From positions 266,301 to 330,300 of the forward strand of contig NZ_AOLK01000019.1 of the NCBI RefSeq assembly GCF_000336755.1: 64,000 nt of DNA, read 5' to 3'. Made by a program: the position numbers and the translations under genes. How positions within the stretch are numbered: position 1 is the stretch's first letter; every line of letters starts with the position of its first letter. This DNA comes from Haloferax elongans ATCC BAA-1513. GTDB taxonomy: Archaea; Halobacteriota; Halobacteria; Halobacteriales; Haloferacaceae. Shown here in pieces: positions 504-61,183 of this stretch. Under the pieces are notes generated by a model. That model saw only the letters and a list, made by a program, of their open reading frames with translations, was not told the origin of the DNA and searched no databases.

Positions 504-2342
504 TTAGTGGTCCATCGACGCGTCGAGGTCGTCGAAGAACGAGTGGAGCAACTTCTGTTGGGCGGTCCGAAGGTGTTGATGGAGCGTCGGCGACGACACG
601 TCGAGGGAGTCTGCGAGGTCCTCAGCAGTGCTCTCACGGGGCCACTCGAAGTACCCAGCTAAGAATGCAGCGCGGAGTGCAGAGTGCTGCTTGTCGGTCA
701 GTCGCCCCTCGACAGACTCGCGGAAATCGGTCGCGTGCTGTGGGTCGCGCTCGACCTCCCGTTTCGACCGGAGTTCGGTGTCCGGGTAGGCGTCGGTCAA
801 CTCTGCGATGACGGTTCGGAGCGGGATTTCGTTCGAAAGCGATACGACGAAACTGGCAGTGCCGTCCTCGGCGACGAACTCCGAGACGGTCCCGTCGCGT
901 GCTGTGACCGCCGAGAGAAGCGACTCACCGGAGAGCACGATTTCGAGCACCGACTCCTCGCCGCGGTCGCGAACGAGACGAACGTTCGAGATTTCGGGTG
1001 CGGCGTCCAGTTCGTCGAACGCTCGGTCGGTTTTCACACCGCTCACGGCGAGGAAACAGAGCAAGGACCGGTCGGCGATAGGGGCGACGCCACGGAGTGC
1101 AACCGTACACCCGAGTGCATCGGAGACTCGGACGAGGACCGAACCGTCGTCGGTACACTGGAATCGGAGTCGAGTAACCGTATCCGCGAGCAAGAGTTTC
1201 TTCCGCTCGACCGCTGTGAGCGCAGCACCGGCCTGCTGTCCGAGCGTCGCCAACACGCTCTGTTCGCCCGTCGAGACAGTTCCCGGCGATGTGCCGAGGT
1301 GTAATCGCCCGAACGTCGTCTCGCCGTGCACGAGCGACACAGTGGTGATAGCCACCGGTCCACCGTCGCTATCAACCACACCACTCTCGCTCGAAACAGA
1401 CACGTTCGACGTTCGAACGAGGGCTTCGTTGCCATCCGAATCGGCCGGTTCACCACTGTCGGGAACGACGCGACGGACGTCCGACAACCCAGCTTCGTCG
1501 ATGCCGACTGCGGTCTGTGAGGCTCCAGACGCAGTATTAGCCGCGGAAATCCACGCGAAGCGATACGCGTTCGACCGACCGAGTCGTTCACAGAGCGTCT
1601 GTTCCAGCTCGTCACGGGTCGTCGCATCCGAGAGTGCAGCGCTGGTTTCGCGGACGAGTTCGACGACAGACGACAGTCGCGACGAGGTGGCCGTTCCGAC
1701 ACCAGTCGTCGAGCGTTCGACGTCCGGGCGACGGCCAGAACTGGTGTGAGCGACGCCACCGCCCGAATCGTAGCCGCCGGTATCAGACGAGAGCGCCTCG
1801 ATAACTGCCGTCTCTGCGGGGGCGTCGACGAACGGAGAGAGACTCTCCAGTCGGTTCCAGCCCCCGACTCGGAGTACCACACTCGGGTGGACGCCCTCGG
1901 CGAGCAGTTGCTTCGCGTAGTAGTTCCGAAGGTCACGCGAGGAGACGTCAGCCAACTCGTCCTGGTCGAATCGCTCGGCAGCGCGTTCGCCAACCGTCGA
2001 AACGAGCATCTGGAGTCGCCGCGCCGTGACCGGAAAGACGCGGTCGGAGTCGCCCACGTCGTTCGCGGCGACGAACTTCCGCAGGTCGTGTTCGACGTCG
2101 GCCGGGAGATACGCGGTTCGGTCGTCATCAGGGACCGAAAGTGCGGTGAGGTCGGTGCCACGAGGCCGCCCGGTTGCGACGTGTGCAGGCGTGAGACGGC
2201 TCATCTCGGTCGGTTGTAAGCCCACTTCCGCGCCCAATCTGACGACGAGGTCCTCGCGGTACGTCTCGGTCGCCCGGCGCAGTCGGTCGTACGCGACCGC
2301 CCACTCTTGGGCCGTTCCGAACGTGTCTCTTGGCCAACCCAT
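504..2342 (-). CDS. Bat-like transcriptional regulator (GAF domain plus C-terminal HTH)
   Basis: A 612-aa protein in the style of the bacterio-opsin activator. The N-terminal ~190 residues resemble a phage-integrase/XerC-like fold (LTPAHVATGRP, DVSSRDLRNYYAKQLLAEGV). A GAF-like sensor segment follows (LEQTLCERLGRSNAYRFAWI through AALTAVERKKLLL). The last ~60 residues form the Bat-type helix-turn-helix (LTDKQHSALRAAFLAGYFEWPR, then SAEDLADSLDVS-like). I chose the ATG at 2342 (MGWPRDTFG) over an upstream in-frame ATG at 2408, because the extra 22 residues are basic and atypical and because a TTTAGT box sits 31 bases before 2342. It lies between two acs paralogs on the same strand, so control of acetate activation is a reasonable inference. 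Confidence 0.85.
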   Translation of the reverse strand: MGWPRDTFGTAQEWAVAYDRLRRATETYREDLVVRLGAEVGLQPTEMSRLTPAHVATGRPRGTDLTALSVPDDDRTAYLPADVEHDLRKFVAANDVGDSDRVFPVTARRLQMLVSTVGERAAERFDQDELADVSSRDLRNYYAKQLLAEGVHPSVVLRVGGWNRLESLSPFVDAPAETAVIEALSSDTGGYDSGGGVAHTSSGRRPDVERSTTGVGTATSSRLSSVVELVRETSAALSDATTRDELEQTLCERLGRSNAYRFAWISAANTASGASQTAVGIDEAGLSDVRRVVPDSGEPADSDGNEALVRTSNVSVSSESGVVDSDGGPVAITTVSLVHGETTFGRLHLGTSPGTVSTGEQSVLATLGQQAGAALTAVERKKLLLADTVTRLRFQCTDDGSVLVRVSDALGCTVALRGVAPIADRSLLCFLAVSGVKTDRAFDELDAAPEISNVRLVRDRGEESVLEIVLSGESLLSAVTARDGTVSEFVAEDGTASFVVSLSNEIPLRTVIAELTDAYPDTELRSKREVERDPQHATDFRESVEGRLTDKQHSALRAAFLAGYFEWPRESTAEDLADSLDVSSPTLHQHLRTAQQKLLHSFFDDLDASMDH

Positions 2343-2462
2343 CTTTCGTAATAATCGAAGAATTCGAACTAAATTGTTCCGGTGACAGCTGTCTTTCTGG
2401 AGTGACACTCGTCTAGCTCCAGAATTACATCTGAGAAGTCGAATAGCATAGTTTCGGTTTCG

Positions 2463-4436
2463 CTATTCTTCCGAAACACCAGTCTGGTTTCTGACGATAG
2501 ATTCCAGTTCTCCGACAACTTCAGGGTTGCGGAGCGTCGACGTATCGCCGAAGTCCTCACCGTTGGTGATGTTTTCGAGGAATCGGCGCATTATCTTTCC
2601 AGACCGGGTCTTCGGCAGGTCCGGGGTGAAGACGATTTCCTCTGGTATCGCTATGGGACCGATACGCTCGCGGACGCGGCCCTCGATTCGTTTTCGGGTA
2701 GCGTCGTCGCCGGTGGCGTCCGCCTCCACGGTGACGTAGGCGTAGATTCCCTCGGCTTGCGGGTCGTCGATGCTCACGACTGCCGCCTCGACGACGTGGT
2801 CGACGTCGACGATTGCCGACTCGACTTCCATGGTTCCGAGGCGATGCCCGGAGACGTTGATAACGTCGTCCACCCGTCCGAGAACCGTGATGTAGCCATC
2901 GTCGTCTCTTCGTGCGCCATCGCCCGTGAAGTAAAACCACCCGTCGATATCGGCGGGCACAGACTGGTCATCCGCCCACCGGGTCCCATCGAGGAGCGCG
3001 TGCGGCATCCCCGGCCACGGCCGCCGGACGACGAGATATCCGGGTTCGTTCGAGTCACACACAGACCCGGTCGCATCCACGACCTGTGCGTCGATGCCCG
3101 GAAGCGGCCGCCCGACAGAACCGGGTTTCATTTCGTCGACTCCCGGAAGCGTCGTGACCATCATGCCGCCGGTCTCGGTCTGCCACCACGTGTCCACGAT
3201 GGGACAGCGGCCGCCGCCGACGTGTTCGTAATACCACTCCCACGCGCGAGGGTTAATTGGCTCGCCGACCGTGCCGAGGAGGCGAAGACTCGACAGGTCG
3301 TGTGCGGCCGGGTACTCGGGCCCCCATTTCATGAACGAGCGAATCACCGTCGGCGCGGTGTAGAACACGTCTACCGCGTTCGACTCGACGAGGTTCCAGA
3401 GGCGGTCTTTCTCGGGGTAGTCTGGCGCGCCTTCGTACATTACGACGGTGGAACCCACTGCGAGCGGGCCGTAAACGACGTACGAGTGGCCGCTAATCCA
3501 CCCGATGTTGGCCGTACTCAGGTAGGTGTCGGCGGGGCCGAGGTCGAGTACTGTCTCGGTCGTCCACGCGACGTGTGCGAGGTAGCCGCCGGTCGTGTGT
3601 TTGACCTTCTTCGGTTCCCCGGTCGTCCCCGAAGTGTGGATGAGAAACAGACAGTCGTTGGCCTCGCGTTCGACTGGGTCGACCGCAGCGCCAGCGTGCT
3701 CTTCGACGAGTTCGTGGTAGTCGTGTTGGGTCTCCCCGAGGTGGGTGTCGCCGTCGAGGCGGTCGACGACCACTGTCTCCCGGATGTCGTGGTCGACGCT
3801 CAGTCGCGCGTCGTCGGCCTTTCGCTTGAGGAGAACTGGATTCCCTCGGCGATAGTAGCCGTCGCACGTGACCAAATAGTTGGATTCGGCGCTTTCGAGT
3901 CGGGTCGCGAGCGCGTCGGCAGAGAGGCCAGCGAACACGACGTTGTGAGGTGCGCCGATGCGGGCGCACGCCAACATCGCGATGGGTAACTCGGGGATGT
4001 TCGGCATGTAGAGCGTCACCACGTCGTCTTCGTCGACGCCGAGTTCGCGGAGTCCGGCCGCGAACTCGTTGACCTCACGGGAGAGGTCTTGGTACGTGTA
4101 GACGCGCGTGTCGCCGGTTCGACTCTCCCACTTGATGGCGACGCGGTTCTTCCCACCGGCTTCGAGGTGGCGGTCGAGGCAGTTGTACGACGCGTTGAGC
4201 GTCCCGCCCGCGAACCACTCGAATGGCGGTCCATCGCCGGACAGCACAGTATCGTAGGACTCGTCCCACGCGAGCCGCGCTGCTGCTGTCTCCCAGCAGT
4301 CGGGCCACGTCGTTTCGAACGTCTCGTAGATGGACTCGTCGGCCGCGTTCGCCTGCTCGACAAACGGCGTCGGCGGTCGGCGGCCGCTCGATTCGGCCGC
4401 CTGCTCTGGAGTGTCCGACTCCCGACCGTTCGACAT
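2463..4436 (-). CDS. acs: Acetyl-CoA synthetase (AMP-forming)
   Basis: A full-length 657-aa enzyme converting acetate, ATP and CoA to acetyl-CoA. The adenylate-forming signature TSGTTGEPK is at residues 268-276. The C-terminal catalytic lysine motif PKTRSGKIMRR is at 608-618 (Lys614 is the expected acetylation-regulated residue), followed by the ACS-type ending TSTLRNPEVV. The start is set at the ATG at 4436 (MSNGRESD) because a TTTTAT box lies exactly 31 bases upstream; the longer ORF start at 4481 would place the TATA inside the gene. It is paralogous to the truncated gene at the window start and divergent from the TBP gene, 125 bases away. Confidence 0.95.
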   Translation of the reverse strand: MSNGRESDTPEQAAESSGRRPPTPFVEQANAADESIYETFETTWPDCWETAAARLAWDESYDTVLSGDGPPFEWFAGGTLNASYNCLDRHLEAGGKNRVAIKWESRTGDTRVYTYQDLSREVNEFAAGLRELGVDEDDVVTLYMPNIPELPIAMLACARIGAPHNVVFAGLSADALATRLESAESNYLVTCDGYYRRGNPVLLKRKADDARLSVDHDIRETVVVDRLDGDTHLGETQHDYHELVEEHAGAAVDPVEREANDCLFLIHTSGTTGEPKKVKHTTGGYLAHVAWTTETVLDLGPADTYLSTANIGWISGHSYVVYGPLAVGSTVVMYEGAPDYPEKDRLWNLVESNAVDVFYTAPTVIRSFMKWGPEYPAAHDLSSLRLLGTVGEPINPRAWEWYYEHVGGGRCPIVDTWWQTETGGMMVTTLPGVDEMKPGSVGRPLPGIDAQVVDATGSVCDSNEPGYLVVRRPWPGMPHALLDGTRWADDQSVPADIDGWFYFTGDGARRDDDGYITVLGRVDDVINVSGHRLGTMEVESAIVDVDHVVEAAVVSIDDPQAEGIYAYVTVEADATGDDATRKRIEGRVRERIGPIAIPEEIVFTPDLPKTRSGKIMRRFLENITNGEDFGDTSTLRNPEVVGELESIVRNQTGVSEE

Positions 4437-35775: not shown

Positions 35776-37491
35776 ATGTCTCCCCCAAAAGTACTCATCG
35801 TCGGCATCGACGCCGCGTGCTTCGAGCAACTCGACCCGCTCGTCGAGTCGGGGGCGGTCCCGACTATCGCCGAACTCCTCGACACCGGTGTCGTCGACGA
35901 ACTCGAAACGACGCATCCACCGTGGACGCCCTCCGCGTGGCCCTCCGTCGTAACCGGGGCGACGCCGTGGCAACACGGAGTCTACGACTTCTACGGCTAC
36001 GACCGCGACCCCGACGGTGAACTCGTCTCCGCCCGAGACGTACAGGTCCCCTATCTGTGGGAGATACTCTCCGCACACGGTCTCTCGTCGGTCGTCGTGA
36101 ACGTCCCAGTCACACATCCGGTCCACGAGTTCGACGGAAGTCTCGTCCCGGGCTATCTCGCCACCGAAGGCGTCGATATCCTCGTCGATGGCGAGAAGCG
36201 ACAACTCGACGAAGTGCTTCCAGACTACCGAGTCTACGCGGGCCAGACGGCGACCAGAGAAGACCGGCTCGCCGAATACGAGCGATTGGTGGACGCCCGA
36301 GTCGATGCCGCCGAGACGCTCGCCGACGCGACCGAGTGGGACCTCATGATGGTCCAGTTCCAGAGCACAGACGGCGTCTTCCACACCGACGGCGACGACC
36401 CGGATGCTGTCGAACGCGTCTACCGCCGGGTCGATGCGGGTATCGAGCGATTGGTCGAACTCGCTGGCCCCGACGCCCACGTCGTCCTCGTGTCCGACCA
36501 CGGAATCCACCAGTACGAGCGTGTCTTCTACCTCAATTCGTGGCTGAAAGACCGCGGTGACCTCGTCACGACAGACGAATCCGTCCGCCACGCGTGGAAC
36601 GAACAGACCAAACACACCGCGACGAGCGAGGGCGACGACGACACCCGGCCACCACTCGCGACGCGAACGCTCCGAGGCGGACTCGGCCTCCTCGGGCACG
36701 TCGGTGTCACCCCGACGCGGGTCGAGCGCGTGCTCGCCAGCCTCGGCCTCGACCGAACTGTCGCGCGGGTACTTCCCGACTCGGTGCTTCAGGAAGTCGT
36801 CGACGCGAGCGAATACGTCGATTTCGACCGCTCTGCGGCCTTCACTCGGTCGCTCTCTTCGCTTGGGATTCGATGCAATGTCGAGGGGCGCGACCCCGGC
36901 GGCGTCATTCCCGCCGACGAGTTCGATGCCTACCGGACCCAACTCGTTTCCGACCTCCGCGAGGTCACGGCACCCGATGGAACACGGGTCTTCGACGCCG
37001 TCGAGGACAGACACGCCCTCGCCGGACGCGACGTAGCTGGTGAGCAGAGCGCGCCGGACATCCTGCTGTTCCCGGCACGAATGACGTGGAAGATTTCGGA
37101 TATCGTCCGTGACGAGCAGTTCGGTGAGACCGACGAGTTCAGCCACACGTGGACCGGTCTGTTCGCCCTGAGCGGGCCAGCAACGTCGGTAGGAACGCTC
37201 AACGTGGCGGACGCGACGGTTATCGACGTGGTGCCGACGGTCCTCTCACTTTTCGGCATCGACCCTCCAGCCCACGTCGAAGGGACCTCGCTGCTCGACG
37301 ACTGGGACCCGGCTCTCGTCGGCCGTGACACCGAGGAACCAGCCGACACCGACGCGACCCACACCACCATGTCCGCAGAAAGACGGTTCTTCGACGACGA
37401 GAGAACCGACTCGAGCGAGGACGAATCGGCGGCCGACGAAGATTCGGAATACGTCGCCGACAGGCTCCGCGAATTGGGGTATCTGGAATGA
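35776..37491 (+). CDS. Type I phosphodiesterase / nucleotide pyrophosphatase family enzyme
   Basis: A 571-aa alkaline-phosphatase-superfamily protein. KVLIVGIDAACFEQLDPL carries the first metal-binding Asp, PPWTPSAWPSVVTGATPWQHGVYDF holds the nucleophile, MMVQFQSTDGVFHT and VVLVSDHGIHQ hold further metal ligands. It likely cleaves or transfers a phosphodiester on a nucleotide-sugar or glycolipid. The start is the ATG at 35776; a GTG at 35767 is also possible. Its TGA overlaps the ATG of the GT2 gene (ATGA), placing it first in a glycosyltransferase operon. Confidence 0.9.
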   Translation: MSPPKVLIVGIDAACFEQLDPLVESGAVPTIAELLDTGVVDELETTHPPWTPSAWPSVVTGATPWQHGVYDFYGYDRDPDGELVSARDVQVPYLWEILSAHGLSSVVVNVPVTHPVHEFDGSLVPGYLATEGVDILVDGEKRQLDEVLPDYRVYAGQTATREDRLAEYERLVDARVDAAETLADATEWDLMMVQFQSTDGVFHTDGDDPDAVERVYRRVDAGIERLVELAGPDAHVVLVSDHGIHQYERVFYLNSWLKDRGDLVTTDESVRHAWNEQTKHTATSEGDDDTRPPLATRTLRGGLGLLGHVGVTPTRVERVLASLGLDRTVARVLPDSVLQEVVDASEYVDFDRSAAFTRSLSSLGIRCNVEGRDPGGVIPADEFDAYRTQLVSDLREVTAPDGTRVFDAVEDRHALAGRDVAGEQSAPDILLFPARMTWKISDIVRDEQFGETDEFSHTWTGLFALSGPATSVGTLNVADATVIDVVPTVLSLFGIDPPAHVEGTSLLDDWDPALVGRDTEEPADTDATHTTMSAERRFFDDERTDSSEDESAADEDSEYVADRLRELGYLE

Positions 37492-56180: not shown

Positions 56181-56463
56181 ACACCCACCATACCGACGCG
56201 GAACACCACTATTCGGACGTGGAACACCACCATGTCCGGAGCTCTTTGTCGAGCCGGTTCCAGGACACTACCAACGCACACTACTCCAACCCACACCACT
56301 CCGACCCACACCACTGTGTCCGCTGTTCGAGTGACAAACCTAGCGAGTTACTCCGGACACGGTGGTGTCGGCCACCGGCTACTCCTTGCGAGCGACATAG
56401 AACAGGGAGAATCTACCTTACCAACTACCGAGCGAGGAATTCGAACACCACATTGTCCGCAGT
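56181..56463. repeat. Left cluster of origin-type repeats (downstream of orc1/cdc6)
   Basis: In the 472-base gap between trpS and orc1: good copies at 56223-56241 (+), 56308-56328 (+), 56349-56368 (-) and 56444-56463 (+), plus two degenerate copies at 56181-56200 and 56202-56220 (+). All good copies keep the two-base spacer between ACCAC and TGTCCG. The rest of the gap holds no gene that I can support. Confidence 0.85.
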
Positions 56464-56587
56464 AATCGGCCGGAGCTAGTCTTCAGTCGCTGCTTCCAGT
56501 CGCAGCTCCCAGTCGCAGCTTTCAGGCGTCGCTTCTAGGCGTCGTTTTCAATATCAGATATGCTCGAAGAGAGGACCAACAAGACAC

Positions 56588-57838
56588 CTAGTTCCCGACG
56601 AAATCGTCGAGCGTGCTGGACGAGTTCTCGTTGAGGAATGGCTCGACTGTCTCGTGGACACCGACGAGGTCGATGGTGTCGCGCATCGCCGAGACGATGA
56701 GTTCCACGTCCATATCCAGCGCATACTCTCGGTACGTTCCGCCGCGACGGCCTTCGTTGCGCTCGGTGACCGAAACGATACCGAGCATCGCGAGTTCGCT
56801 CAGGTGGTCGCGCATTCTGCGTGGAACGAGCGGGTCTCGGTTAGCGAGTTCGGCAAAGCGCGTATACCGCGGTCGAACATCGCGAGAGCGAATCGGGGTC
56901 TCCCCCTCGAGGTCCAGTGTGAGAAGTGAGTACAGAACGAGATGGCCGTGCTCGGTCAAGCCGTTGATTCCTTCTTTGATACGACCGCGTTCGAGGTCTC
57001 TCCGACCGCGTTTGACGTGCTCTTCCGTGACGCAATCTGTCTCTTCGTCTCGGGCAAGGTCGCCTGCTTTCATCAACAGGTCAATAGACTGGCGGGCGTC
57101 ACCAGCGTCTTTCGCGCCGTAGGCTGCACAGAGTGGGATGACCTCGTCTGCGAGGACGCCGTCCCGAAATGCGACAGTTGCCCGTTGCTCGAGGATGGCT
57201 CGGAGGTTCTTCGCGTTGTACGCGGGGAAGTGAATCTCCTGTTCACACAGCGAACTCTTTACTTTCGGAGACAGGTCGTCTCTAAACGAGAAGTCGTTCG
57301 AGATACCGATGAGACCGACCTTGGCGTTGTCTAAGTTTCCATTCGCGCGTGCGCGTGGGAGTTGATAGAGGATACTATCGTCGTTGACGTGGTCGATTTC
57401 GTCGAGGACGACAGTGATTGTCCCGCCACACTCATCGAGTTCCTGCCAGAGCATCTCGTACACCGAGCCGAGCGGATACCCGGTCGTACTGATTTGGTTA
57501 GATTCCGAGCGGAACTCGTTGACGAGGCGGGTCGCGATTTGATAGGAACTCGTCAGCCCGTCACAGTTCAAAAAGACGACTGTGAGGTCGATGTCGTCGT
57601 ACCGACTCGCATCTTCCCGAAGGTGAGCGAGGAGGTACTTCGTCGCTGCTGTCTTCCCGACACCAGTCTTGCCGTACAAGAAAATGTTGTTCGGCTGTTC
57701 ACCGTTGATGACTGGTTGAAGTGCTGCTTGGTAGGTTCGAAGTTCCTCGTCGCGCCCCACGAGTTCATCGGGCTGGTAGTCCTCACGGAGGGCATCCCGG
57801 TCCCGATAGATTTCGGTGTCTCGTTCAAACAGGGGCAT
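56588..57838 (-). CDS. orc1/cdc6: Orc1/Cdc6 replication initiator
   Basis: A 416-aa AAA+ initiator. Walker A GKTGVGKTAATKY (56-63), Walker B VVLDEIDHV (146-149), sensor 1 LIGISNDFSF, sensor 2 DARQSIDLLMKAGDLA, and a C-terminal winged helix (PIRSRDVRPRYTRFAELANRDPLVPRRMRDHLSELAMLGIVSV). It binds origin repeats and loads MCM. The start is the ATG at 57838 (MPLFERDTEIY): TTTTAT lies 32 bases upstream, and the longer frame runs into the repeat region. One origin repeat abuts that TATA box, suggesting autoregulation. Confidence 0.95.
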   Translation of the reverse strand: MPLFERDTEIYRDRDALREDYQPDELVGRDEELRTYQAALQPVINGEQPNNIFLYGKTGVGKTAATKYLLAHLREDASRYDDIDLTVVFLNCDGLTSSYQIATRLVNEFRSESNQISTTGYPLGSVYEMLWQELDECGGTITVVLDEIDHVNDDSILYQLPRARANGNLDNAKVGLIGISNDFSFRDDLSPKVKSSLCEQEIHFPAYNAKNLRAILEQRATVAFRDGVLADEVIPLCAAYGAKDAGDARQSIDLLMKAGDLARDEETDCVTEEHVKRGRRDLERGRIKEGINGLTEHGHLVLYSLLTLDLEGETPIRSRDVRPRYTRFAELANRDPLVPRRMRDHLSELAMLGIVSVTERNEGRRGGTYREYALDMDVELIVSAMRDTIDLVGVHETVEPFLNENSSSTLDDFVGN

Positions 57839-58756
57839 GAGAACACGGTTCGTCCACATCACTGATAAAACCACCGCGTCCGCAGTGTCCGCTGTTCTGA
57901 GAGTATATAAATAAACAGCAAACACACCCCCTCCACTTTGTCCGCTGTTCTCGTCTTCGAAGGAAGGAAGCCAACAAAATACCACTATTGAGTAAGGCAA
58001 GCTTTATCATAAAGTAGGTTAAACCATATCCGTAGGCCAATAATAACAACAGCATTAGTTGGTTGTCACTAGTAGACTGTGTGAGGTTGCTAGTTTGTTC
58101 TGTCGGTTCCGGGTGTGATTATGCTTCGATTATTGTCAGGTTCTCTCCATCTCAGCTCGTTACCTGCAATACCTTCCGACAGTTTGGACCACCCCTTCAC
58201 CTTCTCACCGAGAACAGCGGACATAGTGGTGTGAGTGTTACATCGTCTCGGGAGCAATACCCTCGTGTCCAGGACTCCAGCCAACTTCCTCACAGTCAGA
58301 ACAGCGGACATGGTGGTGTCTGTGTGGGGGGGATTCGAAACCACGGACTCCCGAGTTGGTCTCTCTCAAATTTTTGTCTACTACTCAGTCGCCTCGCCTT
58401 GTCTCGTCTTTCTACGCTATCGCTGACCCCGTCTAATCTCCGACTCCAACGGTATGTTGGCTACAATTACTGCGGACTTGGTGGTGTTACAGGTTGCCGA
58501 GACACGTCTGTACGACGTCTACTCACTCAGTCGACTCGAAAATACATCGTTCTACAGACCCGCCACGGATTACTGCGGACATTGTGGTGTTCCTTCCGTC
58601 CGATTTGGCAGCTGGGCTTCGATAGTAACACCACTGTGTCCGCTGTTCTATCTGCGCTGTGTTGTCTACGCTGTGCTATCTATTTTGTCTCCCCATCTGT
58701 TGTCGGCAAAGAGAAACACACCCAATACACCACGAAGCGACTTTTTGACCGCCTGT
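57839..58756. other. ori: Putative replication origin
   Basis: A 918-base gene-free interval upstream of orc1/cdc6. An AT-rich core (about 57900-57925 and 57975-58075) is flanked by origin-type repeats pointing at each other: + strand at 57868-57886 and 57932-57951 (and a half copy at 57885-57898); - strand at 58211-58232, 58298-58319, 58469-58488 and 58572-58591; then + at 58627-58649. Inverted initiator sites around an AT-rich unwinding element beside orc1/cdc6 is the archaeal origin plan. A long ORF reading through this interval (58063-58824, plus strand) has non-haloarchaeal composition and is rejected. Confidence 0.8.
57865..57886 (-). promoter_or_regulatory. orc1/cdc6 promoter overlapped by an origin repeat
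   Basis: On the minus strand TTTTAT (57870-57865) is 32 bases before the orc1 ATG and is directly joined to the repeat GCGGACG-CG-GTGGTTT (57886-57868). Initiator bound at the repeat would contact the BRE/TATA. Confidence 0.6.
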
Positions 58757-59302
58757 TTAGCTGTCTCGGGTATCGAGAACTACGTCGACGATCTCCTCGG
58801 GATACTCGGCTGCCACACGAATGAGCGCATCGTGGAACTCGCGTCCCGTCAGGTCGCGGATGTCGTGTTCTCGACGAAGGAGCGATTCGACTTCGAACTC
58901 GGCGTCGTCCATCACATCCAGCGTCTCTTGGCGGACGTAGACGCTCTTTGCGGTCGTCGCTTCAAATTCGAACGCTGGACCGTCGGGTTCGTCGTCGTCA
59001 TGTTGACTCGACTCGGCGGATGGTTCGGGTTCTGAATCTGCGGATTGGTCTGCACCGTCGGTGCTCTGATTCTCGTCGACGGCGTTCGCTTCGGGCGTCT
59101 CTTCCTCAGGCGTCTCTGGCGAAGATTCTCCCTCTGGTTCCTCCGGCGTTTCTGTGGAGTCTTTCTCCGTTTCGTCGACTGGCTCTGCGTCCTGATTGGC
59201 AGTCTGGTCTGCTTTCTGCTCACTTTCGGCTTCGTCTTCGTCCTCGTCTTCGTTCCCGTCGATTGCTTCGCCGAGCCCGGCGAAACGGTTCTCTTTAGGC
59301 AT
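58757..59302 (-). CDS. Partner protein of ParA (putative ParB-like adaptor)
   Basis: A 181-aa protein. Residues about 15-115 are a disordered acidic region (Glu/Asp/Ser/Pro/Gln). The C-terminal ~65 residues are folded (SVYVRQETLDVMDDAEFEVESLLRREHDIRDLTGREFHDALIRVAAEYPEEIVDVVL), similar in length to a small DNA-binding or ParA-interacting domain. Its ATG lies inside the last three codons of parA (8-base overlap), so the pair is translated together. ParB-type function is inferred from this position. Confidence 0.8.
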   Translation of the reverse strand: MPKENRFAGLGEAIDGNEDEDEDEAESEQKADQTANQDAEPVDETEKDSTETPEEPEGESSPETPEEETPEANAVDENQSTDGADQSADSEPEPSAESSQHDDDEPDGPAFEFEATTAKSVYVRQETLDVMDDAEFEVESLLRREHDIRDLTGREFHDALIRVAAEYPEEIVDVVLDTRDS

Positions 59303-60119
59303 CGGTCACTCCTCCACGCTCGACGATACCGGCCAGTTCGTCGAGTCTGTTCAGCATGTCGTTCGTCGGGTCGTATTCTCGAAGCGTCTTTCCGTCACGC
59401 CACGCCCGACTGAATGCGATTCGATGTCGAATTCCCGGTCCTTTCGACTCGGCGTCGTCGAAGAGGCTCGACCGAGCGAACTGCGGGATGTACTTATCGA
59501 ACGGCGAGTCTTCGAGGTTCTGGATGATTCGACGCTCTTCGTTGTTTCCGGTGAGGTCGTTCGGCACGATTGCGAGGATATCGAGGTCGACCTCTCGGCG
59601 AATCGGACCGATTTGTTGTTCGAACATTCGCTCGAAGCCACTCACGCTGGGTTCGCTCATCAGAAGCGGGACCACGACGTTCCCGGAACCGATGAGGGCA
59701 GCGTCGGAGAGCGGACCGAGACTCGGCGGCGAGTCGATGACGATGTAGTCGTACTCGTCATCCAGCAGTGGGTCGATGATTCGTCGCCGGACCCACAGCA
59801 CACCGAACGTCGAGTTTCGAACTCGGTCTTCGATGTCGTCGAGGTCGACGTGTGCTGGAAGGACGTCGAACACTTCCCGGTCGCGAATAATCTCCCGAAC
59901 GTCCACTGGGTCGTCGTCGGTCAACACGTCGCCGATATTCGGGTTTGCAGACTCGTAGGCATCTTTCATTCCTACTCCTTCGGTCGCGTTCCCTTGCTGG
60001 TCGAGGTCGACCAGAAGGACGTCGTTGTCTCGTGCTGCGAGTGCGTCGGCTAAGTTGATTGCAATCGTCGTCTTACCGACGCCACCTTTCTGCAGGGAGA
60101 CACTCACTGCTCGCGACAT
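59295..60119 (-). CDS. parA: ParA/Soj-type partition ATPase
   Basis: A 274-aa deviant Walker ATPase: SLQKGGVGKTTIAINLADALAARD (10-ish to 35), VLLVDLDQQGNAT, YDYIVIDSPPSLGPLSDAALI, and a ParA-type C-terminus. It moves plasmid or origin DNA by nucleoid-bound ATP cycling. It is next to orc1/cdc6 and the origin, with a 9-bp iteron array immediately upstream (60166-60192) that could be its operator or centromere. Confidence 0.95.
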   Translation of the reverse strand: MSRAVSVSLQKGGVGKTTIAINLADALAARDNDVLLVDLDQQGNATEGVGMKDAYESANPNIGDVLTDDDPVDVREIIRDREVFDVLPAHVDLDDIEDRVRNSTFGVLWVRRRIIDPLLDDEYDYIVIDSPPSLGPLSDAALIGSGNVVVPLLMSEPSVSGFERMFEQQIGPIRREVDLDILAIVPNDLTGNNEERRIIQNLEDSPFDKYIPQFARSSLFDDAESKGPGIRHRIAFSRAWRDGKTLREYDPTNDMLNRLDELAGIVERGGVTDA

Positions 60120-61183
60120 CTACTGTCCCCCCGGCTGTCGAGACTGCTTACAATTCACACAGGTTGTACAATTTGCACAATTTGTACAGTTTGTGGGCTG
60201 TGTGGGCCTTGGAGCCGATACAAATTGGCCGTGGTGGGTGAATTGGATGCGCATGACGTCGTTCAAAATCTGGTTCTTCGCACTGGTACATAATCCTATC
60301 CACAACTTTTGAACTGTCGTAACTGTTGGCCATTCTCAAACATTTTAGAATTTCTAAAAATTGTATAGTTTCTACAGAAGAAACAAGGCGAGTACCTCGG
60401 TGCTTGACTCCCCATGGCGGTTCACACTTCCCAACCCACCTTGTCTGTCGAGCTGGATGCTCGAATTTCAGCTTCTATCTCTCTCGAGGGCATCGGGTAC
60501 TTCCTGCGAAAATGAATTGTTCGGGCCTTCACCCCACGAAACGCGAATACTATTCGCTTTCGGAATTGGGTTGGTCGTTTGGCTCGGCTATCCGCCCGAA
60601 CTGTCCAGGTGCTTCCCGCTTCGAGGTAGAGTCCTCGTGGACCAGCGGTGAAACACTGTACAAATTGTAGACTTTGCCAACTGTGTGAACTTGGCACAGC
60701 GTGAATACTGTGTGAGATATCTACAAAATTCACACTGTATGAAACAGGTCTATACAGGTCTCAACCGCTGGTTTACTGCGGACATGGTGGTGTTGGGTTC
60801 GAAACCGAATTGCTGTGTCCTCTATCCATTCAGCCACGATTCGGACCGACTGTGTCACTATGCACTCGTGACTGTGTACAAATTCTAAAATTTGTAGAAT
60901 TCGAAAGATGTTGGTGGATTCTATGATGTTTGGGATTCTCGCGATTTCCCAAACGTGCTGACTGTCTGTGGTGTGTGAACTGTCTGTGATGTATGAACTG
61001 CCTTGGATGTTGACGTTGTTCGAACAGTATTGACTCTCCTAGCAGTCTATGATGTGAGCACATCTGACGGTGTGTTCAGTGTCCAAAAATTCCACACATT
61101 CCAGACTGTGTTCACCGCGTCGATGGTCAGCCCTGGCAACCGAGAGCCTTCCGCGAGGACGAGACGTTGCCGACGACCAGTCG
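60120..61183. other. AT-rich non-coding region with iterons upstream of parA
   Basis: About 1060 bases with no gene I can support and much lower GC than the rest. It contains the 9-bp array described separately, a 17-bp palindrome TTTTAGAATTTCTAAAA (60343-60359), an inverted repeat TACAAATT-CTAA-AATTTGTA (60877-60896), scattered GTACAAATT and TGTGTGAACTG-like words, and one origin-type repeat at 60775-60794 (-). Likely centromere and/or accessory origin sequences. Confidence 0.6.
60166..60192. repeat. Three tandem 9-bp iterons before parA
   Basis: GTACAATTT, GCACAATTT, GTACAGTTT follow each other without gaps, with a related TACAATT copy at 60150-60156. They lie 47-73 bases upstream of the parA ATG, where an operator/parS for the partition proteins would be expected. 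Confidence 0.65.

Follow-up and report, generated by a model that had tools for sequence, protein, structure and literature searches.

A dyad-symmetric 9-bp repeat lattice upstream of parA as a candidate centromere of a Haloferax megaplasmid

In Haloferax elongans, the gap of 1,064 bp preceding parA contains approximately 55–56 degenerate 9-bp units, which decoding places in four blocks. On the basis of sequence comparison, this gap probably serves as both centromere and operator for a ParA-driven partition system on a Haloferax megaplasmid, because arrays of the same type accompany this gene pair in other haloarchaea and most satellite arrays share its contig or replicon. A sequence-only reading had described the region as iterons forming a possible archaeal centromere. 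The repeats are real and the centromere role remains the best-supported reading, but the array goes far beyond the three 9-mers named there, which greatly understate its extent.

The window, that is, the whole stretch of DNA analysed here, is 64 kb long (C19:266301–330300) and belongs to contig C19 (341,465 bp) in a genome of 3.95 Mb. Within the gap (60120–61183), self-match has a z value of 6.3 at lag 9, 5.1 at lag 18 and 4.2 at lag 27, relative to 300 dinucleotide shuffles. A cyclic model with nine states yields a gain of 144 nats versus 26–32 nats in 15 dinucleotide shuffles, and when periods 5–14 are compared, only 9 is prominent, the other periods gaining 7–51 nats. Read in the sense of parA, the unit is A-M-W-K-T-S-Y-R-S, which after rotation is its own reverse complement, with a symmetry correlation of 0.82. 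The same 300 shuffles reveal no lag-3 signal in the gap, so the pattern is not coding; this result, together with the absence of a plausible gene from the ORF list of the gap, led us to reject a decayed coding sequence. A three-unit pattern allowing up to three mismatches has 19 matches in the window, all of them at 60157–61118 (0.09 expected), a count that demonstrates confinement, not discovery, since the pattern was taken from the array itself. Furthermore, a tile score S, defined as the self-match at 9, 18 and 27 minus the self-match at other multiples of 3, reaches 0.07 in 29 of 46 tiles in the region versus 5 of 2,490 in the rest of the window.

The elements picked out by the sequence-only reading can each be located in the gap. 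Specifically, the three gapless 9-mers are TGTACAATT-TGCACAATT-TGTACAGTT at 60165–60191, the 17-bp palindrome is perfect (TTTTAGAATTTCTAAAA, 60343–60359), and the 20-bp inverted repeat is TACAAATT-CTAA-AATTTGTA at 60877–60896, the 20-nt pair I5 being an alternative candidate for what was meant. The palindromes are adjacent units of the dyad-symmetric repeat. The tract is also AT-rich, as had been stated, with a GC content of 0.484 versus approximately 0.55–0.61 in most flanking tiles. Beside the ORB-like word in the array gap, there is a tRNA-like stretch on the minus strand (GGTCCGAATCGTGGCTGAATGGATAGAGGAC...GGTTTCGAACC, approximately 60800–60850). ARAGORN, Rfam and a search for a second copy in the same genome were all empty for this stretch, and an RNA gene or tRNA remnant was rejected. 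The features of the region are collected in Table 1.

Table 1. Features of the parA region, in window coordinates
Feature	Position	Strand	Description
orc1/cdc6 initiator gene	56588..57838	-	TIGR02928, E 2.7e-132
AT-rich gap between orc and partner gene	57840..58756		ORB-like words near 58219, 58306, 58471, 58574 (+) and 58641 (-)
Partner gene	58757..59302	-	181 aa; overlaps the end of parA; MPKENRFAGL N-terminal motif, acidic arm, C-terminal domain ~104-181
parA	59295..60119	-	274 aa; deviant Walker A KGGVGKTT; without N-terminal DNA-binding extension; Pfam AAA_31, E 5.7e-36 (translation)
Block IV, 9-bp array	60135..60211	-	~9 units; between promoter-like element and parA; includes the three 9-mers
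Promoter-like element GTGGATARRATTATGTR	60285..60303	-	Lies between blocks III and IV; its start is 184 bp ahead of the parA ATG
Block III, 9-bp array	60299..60376	-	~9 units; just upstream of promoter-like element; includes the 17-bp palindrome
Block II, 9-bp array	60651..60744	-	~10 units; decoding
ORB-like word TGCGGACATGGTGGTGT	60777..60795	+	In the array gap between blocks I and II
Block I, 9-bp array	60859..61115	-	~28 consecutive units; Viterbi decoding; posterior decoding gives 9-bp steps from 61118 to 60866

The nearest named relative of the ParA is from Haloferax larsenii, with 98% identity. H. larsenii NCIM 5678 has the same order of msrA, gap, parA, partner, gap and orc on a complete circular plasmid of 327,798 bp, and the plasmids that bear the cassette in H. 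gibbonsii, H. lucentense, H. alexandrinus and H. mediterranei measure 285–505 kb. Because the relatives carry the cassette on megaplasmids, we read C19 as a megaplasmid, very probably the counterpart of that of H. larsenii. ORB-like words (GGACA-N-GTGGTGT) flank orc1/cdc6 on both sides, at 56237–58641. The AT-rich gap between orc and the partner gene is likely a replication origin, and this cluster of words, together with the word at 60777, probably marks the origin of the replicon. Further single ORB-like words occur near 37377 and 42789.

Comparison with other haloarchaeal parA loci, which the sequence-only reading had proposed for the 9-mer, shows that the 9-bp period recurs, with letters that are not always the same. 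Relative to shuffles, an upstream tile reaches z ≥ 5 in 53 of 74 haloarchaeal parA–partner loci (27 of 35 close loci and 26 of 39 diverged loci). The highest-scoring tile anywhere in the locus is upstream of parA in 58 of the 74, with approximately 14 expected by area. Among 32 bacterial ParA controls, z ≥ 5 is reached in none, and the best tile is upstream in 5, with 5.1 expected. Left out of this comparison are L066, which is archaeal and not suited to a bacterial control, and L134, which has no ParA; the 74 loci include at least two pairs that are probably the same contig taken twice (L044/L120, both above z 5, and L042/L128, both below). The score S was devised after the window and early relatives had been seen, and the later-fetched loci are the only test with a preset criterion; with that criterion unchanged, z ≥ 5 is reached in 10 of the 14 later loci with ParA, and the best tile is upstream of parA in 13 of the 14. 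This later set comprises 17 loci from newly found genomes, 14 of them with ParA, with G418:C30, located where a contig begins, and a further weak place in G334 excluded.

In Haloferax, Halorussus and Natrialbales-type loci, the periodic signal is limited to approximately 1.1 kb upstream of parA. Between a quarter and a third of loci lack a clear array; the 21 of 74 loci below z 5 include chromosomal Halolamina loci and L098–L100, in which a partner relative is present. In the genome of the window, three other ParA loci have no periodic array. One locus of this genome (L160, C20, 2045–3237) has another ParA, a different small partner (a 131-aa frame) and no upstream array, and its partner gene, which lies downstream of parA, contains an internal 9-bp nucleotide repeat, visible as a periodic tile, in its coding sequence.

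Decoding of Haloferax loci gives 48–61 units each in 12 of 12, always with the same layout: one block beside parA, a second block past the promoter-like element and, further out, blocks of greater length. A promoter-like element of the same kind is present in all seven Haloferax loci inspected, the window included, and the Halolamina locus L045 has a TATA-like analogue; we tentatively assign the element as a putative TATA/BRE. Beyond the closest relative, arrays of different species align only in short pieces, the promoter-proximal part excepted, yet keep the unit, and therefore the unit is conserved while positions drift.

The unit A-M-W-K-T-S-Y-R-S is found in Haloferax, Halorussus and Halogeometricum-type loci, Natrialbales-type loci have a unit with an A-C-N-G-T core, and some diverged subfamilies have ASCTWAGST-like units. 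Dyad symmetry holds for most unit subfamilies, with correlations of up to 0.97, and is missing from a few fits that rest on one or two loci. At two loci, second arrays with a 9-bp period lie downstream of the operon (L050, approximately +1200 to +1700 from parA, and L060, beyond +3700). At four others (L061, L062, L106 and L107), the ParA is approximately 61% identical to that of the window, the partner only approximately 40%, and the array unit is different; these loci are possible natural cassette recombinants.

Arrays of the same type also occur away from parA. In the genome of the window, a four-unit pattern allowing up to three mismatches matches only on C19, in the main array and in one satellite, and the reversed control has 0 matches. 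The satellite, of approximately 16 units, is located at C19:340674–340815, between convergent genes for a NorB-like oxidase and a halocyanin, whose names are taken by analogy from the H. larsenii annotation, and the equivalent convergent-gene gap of H. larsenii also contains a satellite. Since it lies between convergent genes, the satellite gap is a non-promoter region. Across the genus, the four-unit pattern matches in 15 of 15 genomes and its reversed control in none. Besides the parA-side array, satellites are found at 18 places, 12 on the parA contig and 6 on other contigs, with hits merged into places by eye and replicon assignment blurred by draft contigs. Several of the off-contig satellites resemble parA-contig satellites of other species and may reflect split assemblies; one is on a contig of nearly 3 Mb. 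Among complete records, the pattern is present in six of six parA-bearing megaplasmids, with satellites in four, versus none of three sister plasmids. The satellites are shorter than the main array and distant from the replication origin.

The ParA has an AAA_31 fold with the deviant Walker A motif KGGVGKT of ParA-type partition ATPases. Its partner has the long acidic arm and small C-terminal domain that had been described, as judged from the translation and from comparison of loci. In particular, an N-terminal NRF motif (NRFAGL or close to it), the acidic arm and the C-terminal domain follow one another in 33 of 35 close loci, and diverged partners have, by eye, a start of the F-x-[GD]-[LVI] type. 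The view that the partner is unlike classical ParB is upheld by Pfam, which returns no ParB family for the full partner or for 51 C-terminal domains. No Pfam, NCBIfam or PHROG family is above chance for these 51 domain sequences, and no sequence-related chain was found in a PDB copy assumed to contain SegB. The partner is present in 73 of 148 genomes of the window's family, and its domain is present in 23 of 294 phylum genomes sampled, all in the window's own order.

The structural model of the 78-aa C-terminal domain has a pLDDT of 93 and is composed of an extended segment followed by three helices (residues 22–43, 50–62 and 65–77); a model built without an alignment is poorer (pLDDT 73.9). 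Foldseek returns no match at E ≤ 0.001 in PDB or BFVD for this monomer model, which may mask an intertwined dimer fold, and the domain has a weak structural likeness to histone-fold chains (VIA Z at most 3.6). A ribbon-helix-helix (RHH) fold, guessed from the strand-helix-helix pattern, may still apply to the domain but draws no support from the PDB sequence search, the fold search or profile comparison with eight RHH_1 proteins of the same genome (probability 0.3%).

We compared array units with both proteins across 40 of the 51 aligned partners, the remainder having no tile with S ≥ 0.07 or no ParA anchor. Unit similarity correlates with partner similarity (r 0.67) and with ParA similarity (r 0.73). 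In partial Mantel tests, the partner given ParA retains a significant correlation of 0.18 and ParA given the partner a stronger one of 0.41; therefore these tests do not identify the partner specifically as the protein that reads the array, and the data fit co-evolution within the cassette. The idea that the array follows the partner even without ParA seemed to be supported by L134 and was dropped when three further orphans proved to have no array. In L134, a partner relative (2300–3100, partner sense) has no ParA hit in the fetched locus and a short 9-bp array with another unit just upstream.

These results bear on a reading in which the array is bound by a host or chromatin protein, or by ParA itself, instead of the partner. 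Unit similarity follows ParA at least as well as the partner, and an array accompanies only one of four orphan partner relatives with no ParA hit nearby. However, the 274-aa ParA has no DNA-binding domain beyond the Walker fold, and unit letters vary between subfamilies within one order. Moreover, the seven partner positions most linked to unit type all fall in C-terminal domain residues 13–20 or 48–53, an association that is exploratory, post hoc and confounded by ancestry. We consider another reader very unlikely. Much the same small probability attaches to the array being replication iterons, that is, 9-mers serving as sites for Orc1/Cdc6 or another initiator within the origin. The orc gene and an ORB-rich gap do adjoin the operon, and one ORB-like word is in the array gap, but the ORB-like words differ in sequence from the 9-mers and cluster on both sides of orc, an orc relative occurs in the flanks (approximately 2–5 kb) of only 16 of 35 close and 4 of 39 diverged loci, many array loci being without one, and the satellites are far from the origin.

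An array acting as operator only, a large autoregulatory element repressing parA–partner transcription with the partition site elsewhere, is unlikely. The position of blocks III and IV on either side of the promoter-like element suits such a role, as do several diverged loci with just short arrays near parA, but the array of the window extends to about −1000 relative to parA, far past any normal promoter. Two further points against it are the presence of satellites in four of the six megaplasmids and the position of one satellite, shared by the window's genome and H. larsenii, between convergent genes, a setting in which a promoter would not be expected. Neutral tandem-repeat DNA, or a structural signal such as curvature or histone phasing that requires no specific protein, would account for AT-rich, degenerate units and is highly improbable: the period is 9 instead of 10–10.5, neighbouring units as decoded are too diverged for recent slippage, the unit is dyad-symmetric in most subfamilies, its consensus is kept where arrays align poorly, and four-unit matches are bound to one contig of the genome.

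For a partition system with the gap as centromere and operator, we propose the following mechanism. Dimers of the partner C-terminal domain would bind adjacent units cooperatively and coat the DNA, and the acidic arm would project the conserved N-terminal F-x-G/D-L motif (NRFAGL here) onto ParA, triggering its ATPase. ParA on nucleoid or chromosomal DNA would then pull or space plasmid copies. Coated promoter-side blocks would repress parA–partner transcription, and satellite arrays could serve as extra handles elsewhere on the same replicon. Cooperative coating, N-terminal stimulation of ParA and a combined operator and centromere role are modelled on established ParA biology, as for the pSM19035 heptads.

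More broadly, the loci could define a haloarchaea-wide segregation class, composed of a ParA, an adaptor with a DNA-binding domain of no described family, and a strictly phased, dyad-symmetric 9-bp lattice of approximately 50–60 units that the adaptor coats, with satellites mostly on the same megaplasmid, forming a regional or distributed centromere where random partitioning was assumed, with letters diverging to avoid cross-reaction of co-resident replicons; we regard the case for this class as evenly balanced. A literature search of limited reach found no titles or abstracts describing these repeats or this partner. Haloarchaeal megaplasmid segregation and the nature of archaeal centromeres are named as outstanding questions in a review (PMC5120986). 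Haloferax now has a candidate centromere, a defined adaptor and conserved satellite sites, including those of H. mediterranei pHME505, and the question of megaplasmid segregation is therefore directly testable. In addition, a 9-bp lattice with shifting letters offers a natural system for the evolution of DNA-binding specificity and plasmid compatibility.

Among known partition systems, ParABS with a CTPase ParB shares with the window a ParA ATPase and a cis site near the origin, but the partner here, in its full length and in the 51 C-terminal domains, has no ParB/Srx or ParB HTH domain by Pfam. In the SegAB system of Sulfolobales, SegB recognises a 13-bp palindrome, TCTAGASTCTAGA, the sites of which are scattered, according to PMC12284271 and PMC5120986. 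As in SegAB, a ParA homologue is followed by an overlapping downstream partner gene, and sites occur both ahead of the operon and at other places on the replicon. The partner domain has no sequence relation to any chain of the PDB copy assumed to include SegB, though a SegB-like fold may still apply, and the window contains 0 SegB-type 13-bp sites at up to two mismatches. Because a ParB domain and such 13-bp sites are absent, the system is not classed as SegAB or ParABS. The AspA-ParB-ParA system of pNOB8, described in PMC5120986 as three proteins with a 23-bp palindrome, is likewise an archaeal plasmid partition cassette with a site upstream of the operon, whereas the system here has two proteins and a 9-bp lattice.

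The ParA/RHH-ParB system delta/omega of pSM19035 has, as reported in PMC9499535, a parS of contiguous heptads (the 7-bp non-palindromic WATCACW, 7–10 repeats per site) that act as both operator and centromere; at least four contiguous repeats are required for full ParA activation, and the partner N-terminus contacts ParA. The 64-kb window contains no heptad signal of this type, its units are 9-bp and dyad-symmetric with 48–61 per main array in Haloferax, and its partner has no RHH sequence signature. Like pSM19035, it combines a ParA and a small partner with contiguous short repeats overlapping par promoters and several sites per plasmid. As in iteron-type plasmid centromeres, tandem short repeats adjoin the par operon, and by analogy the system appears to work like the iteron-centromere type.
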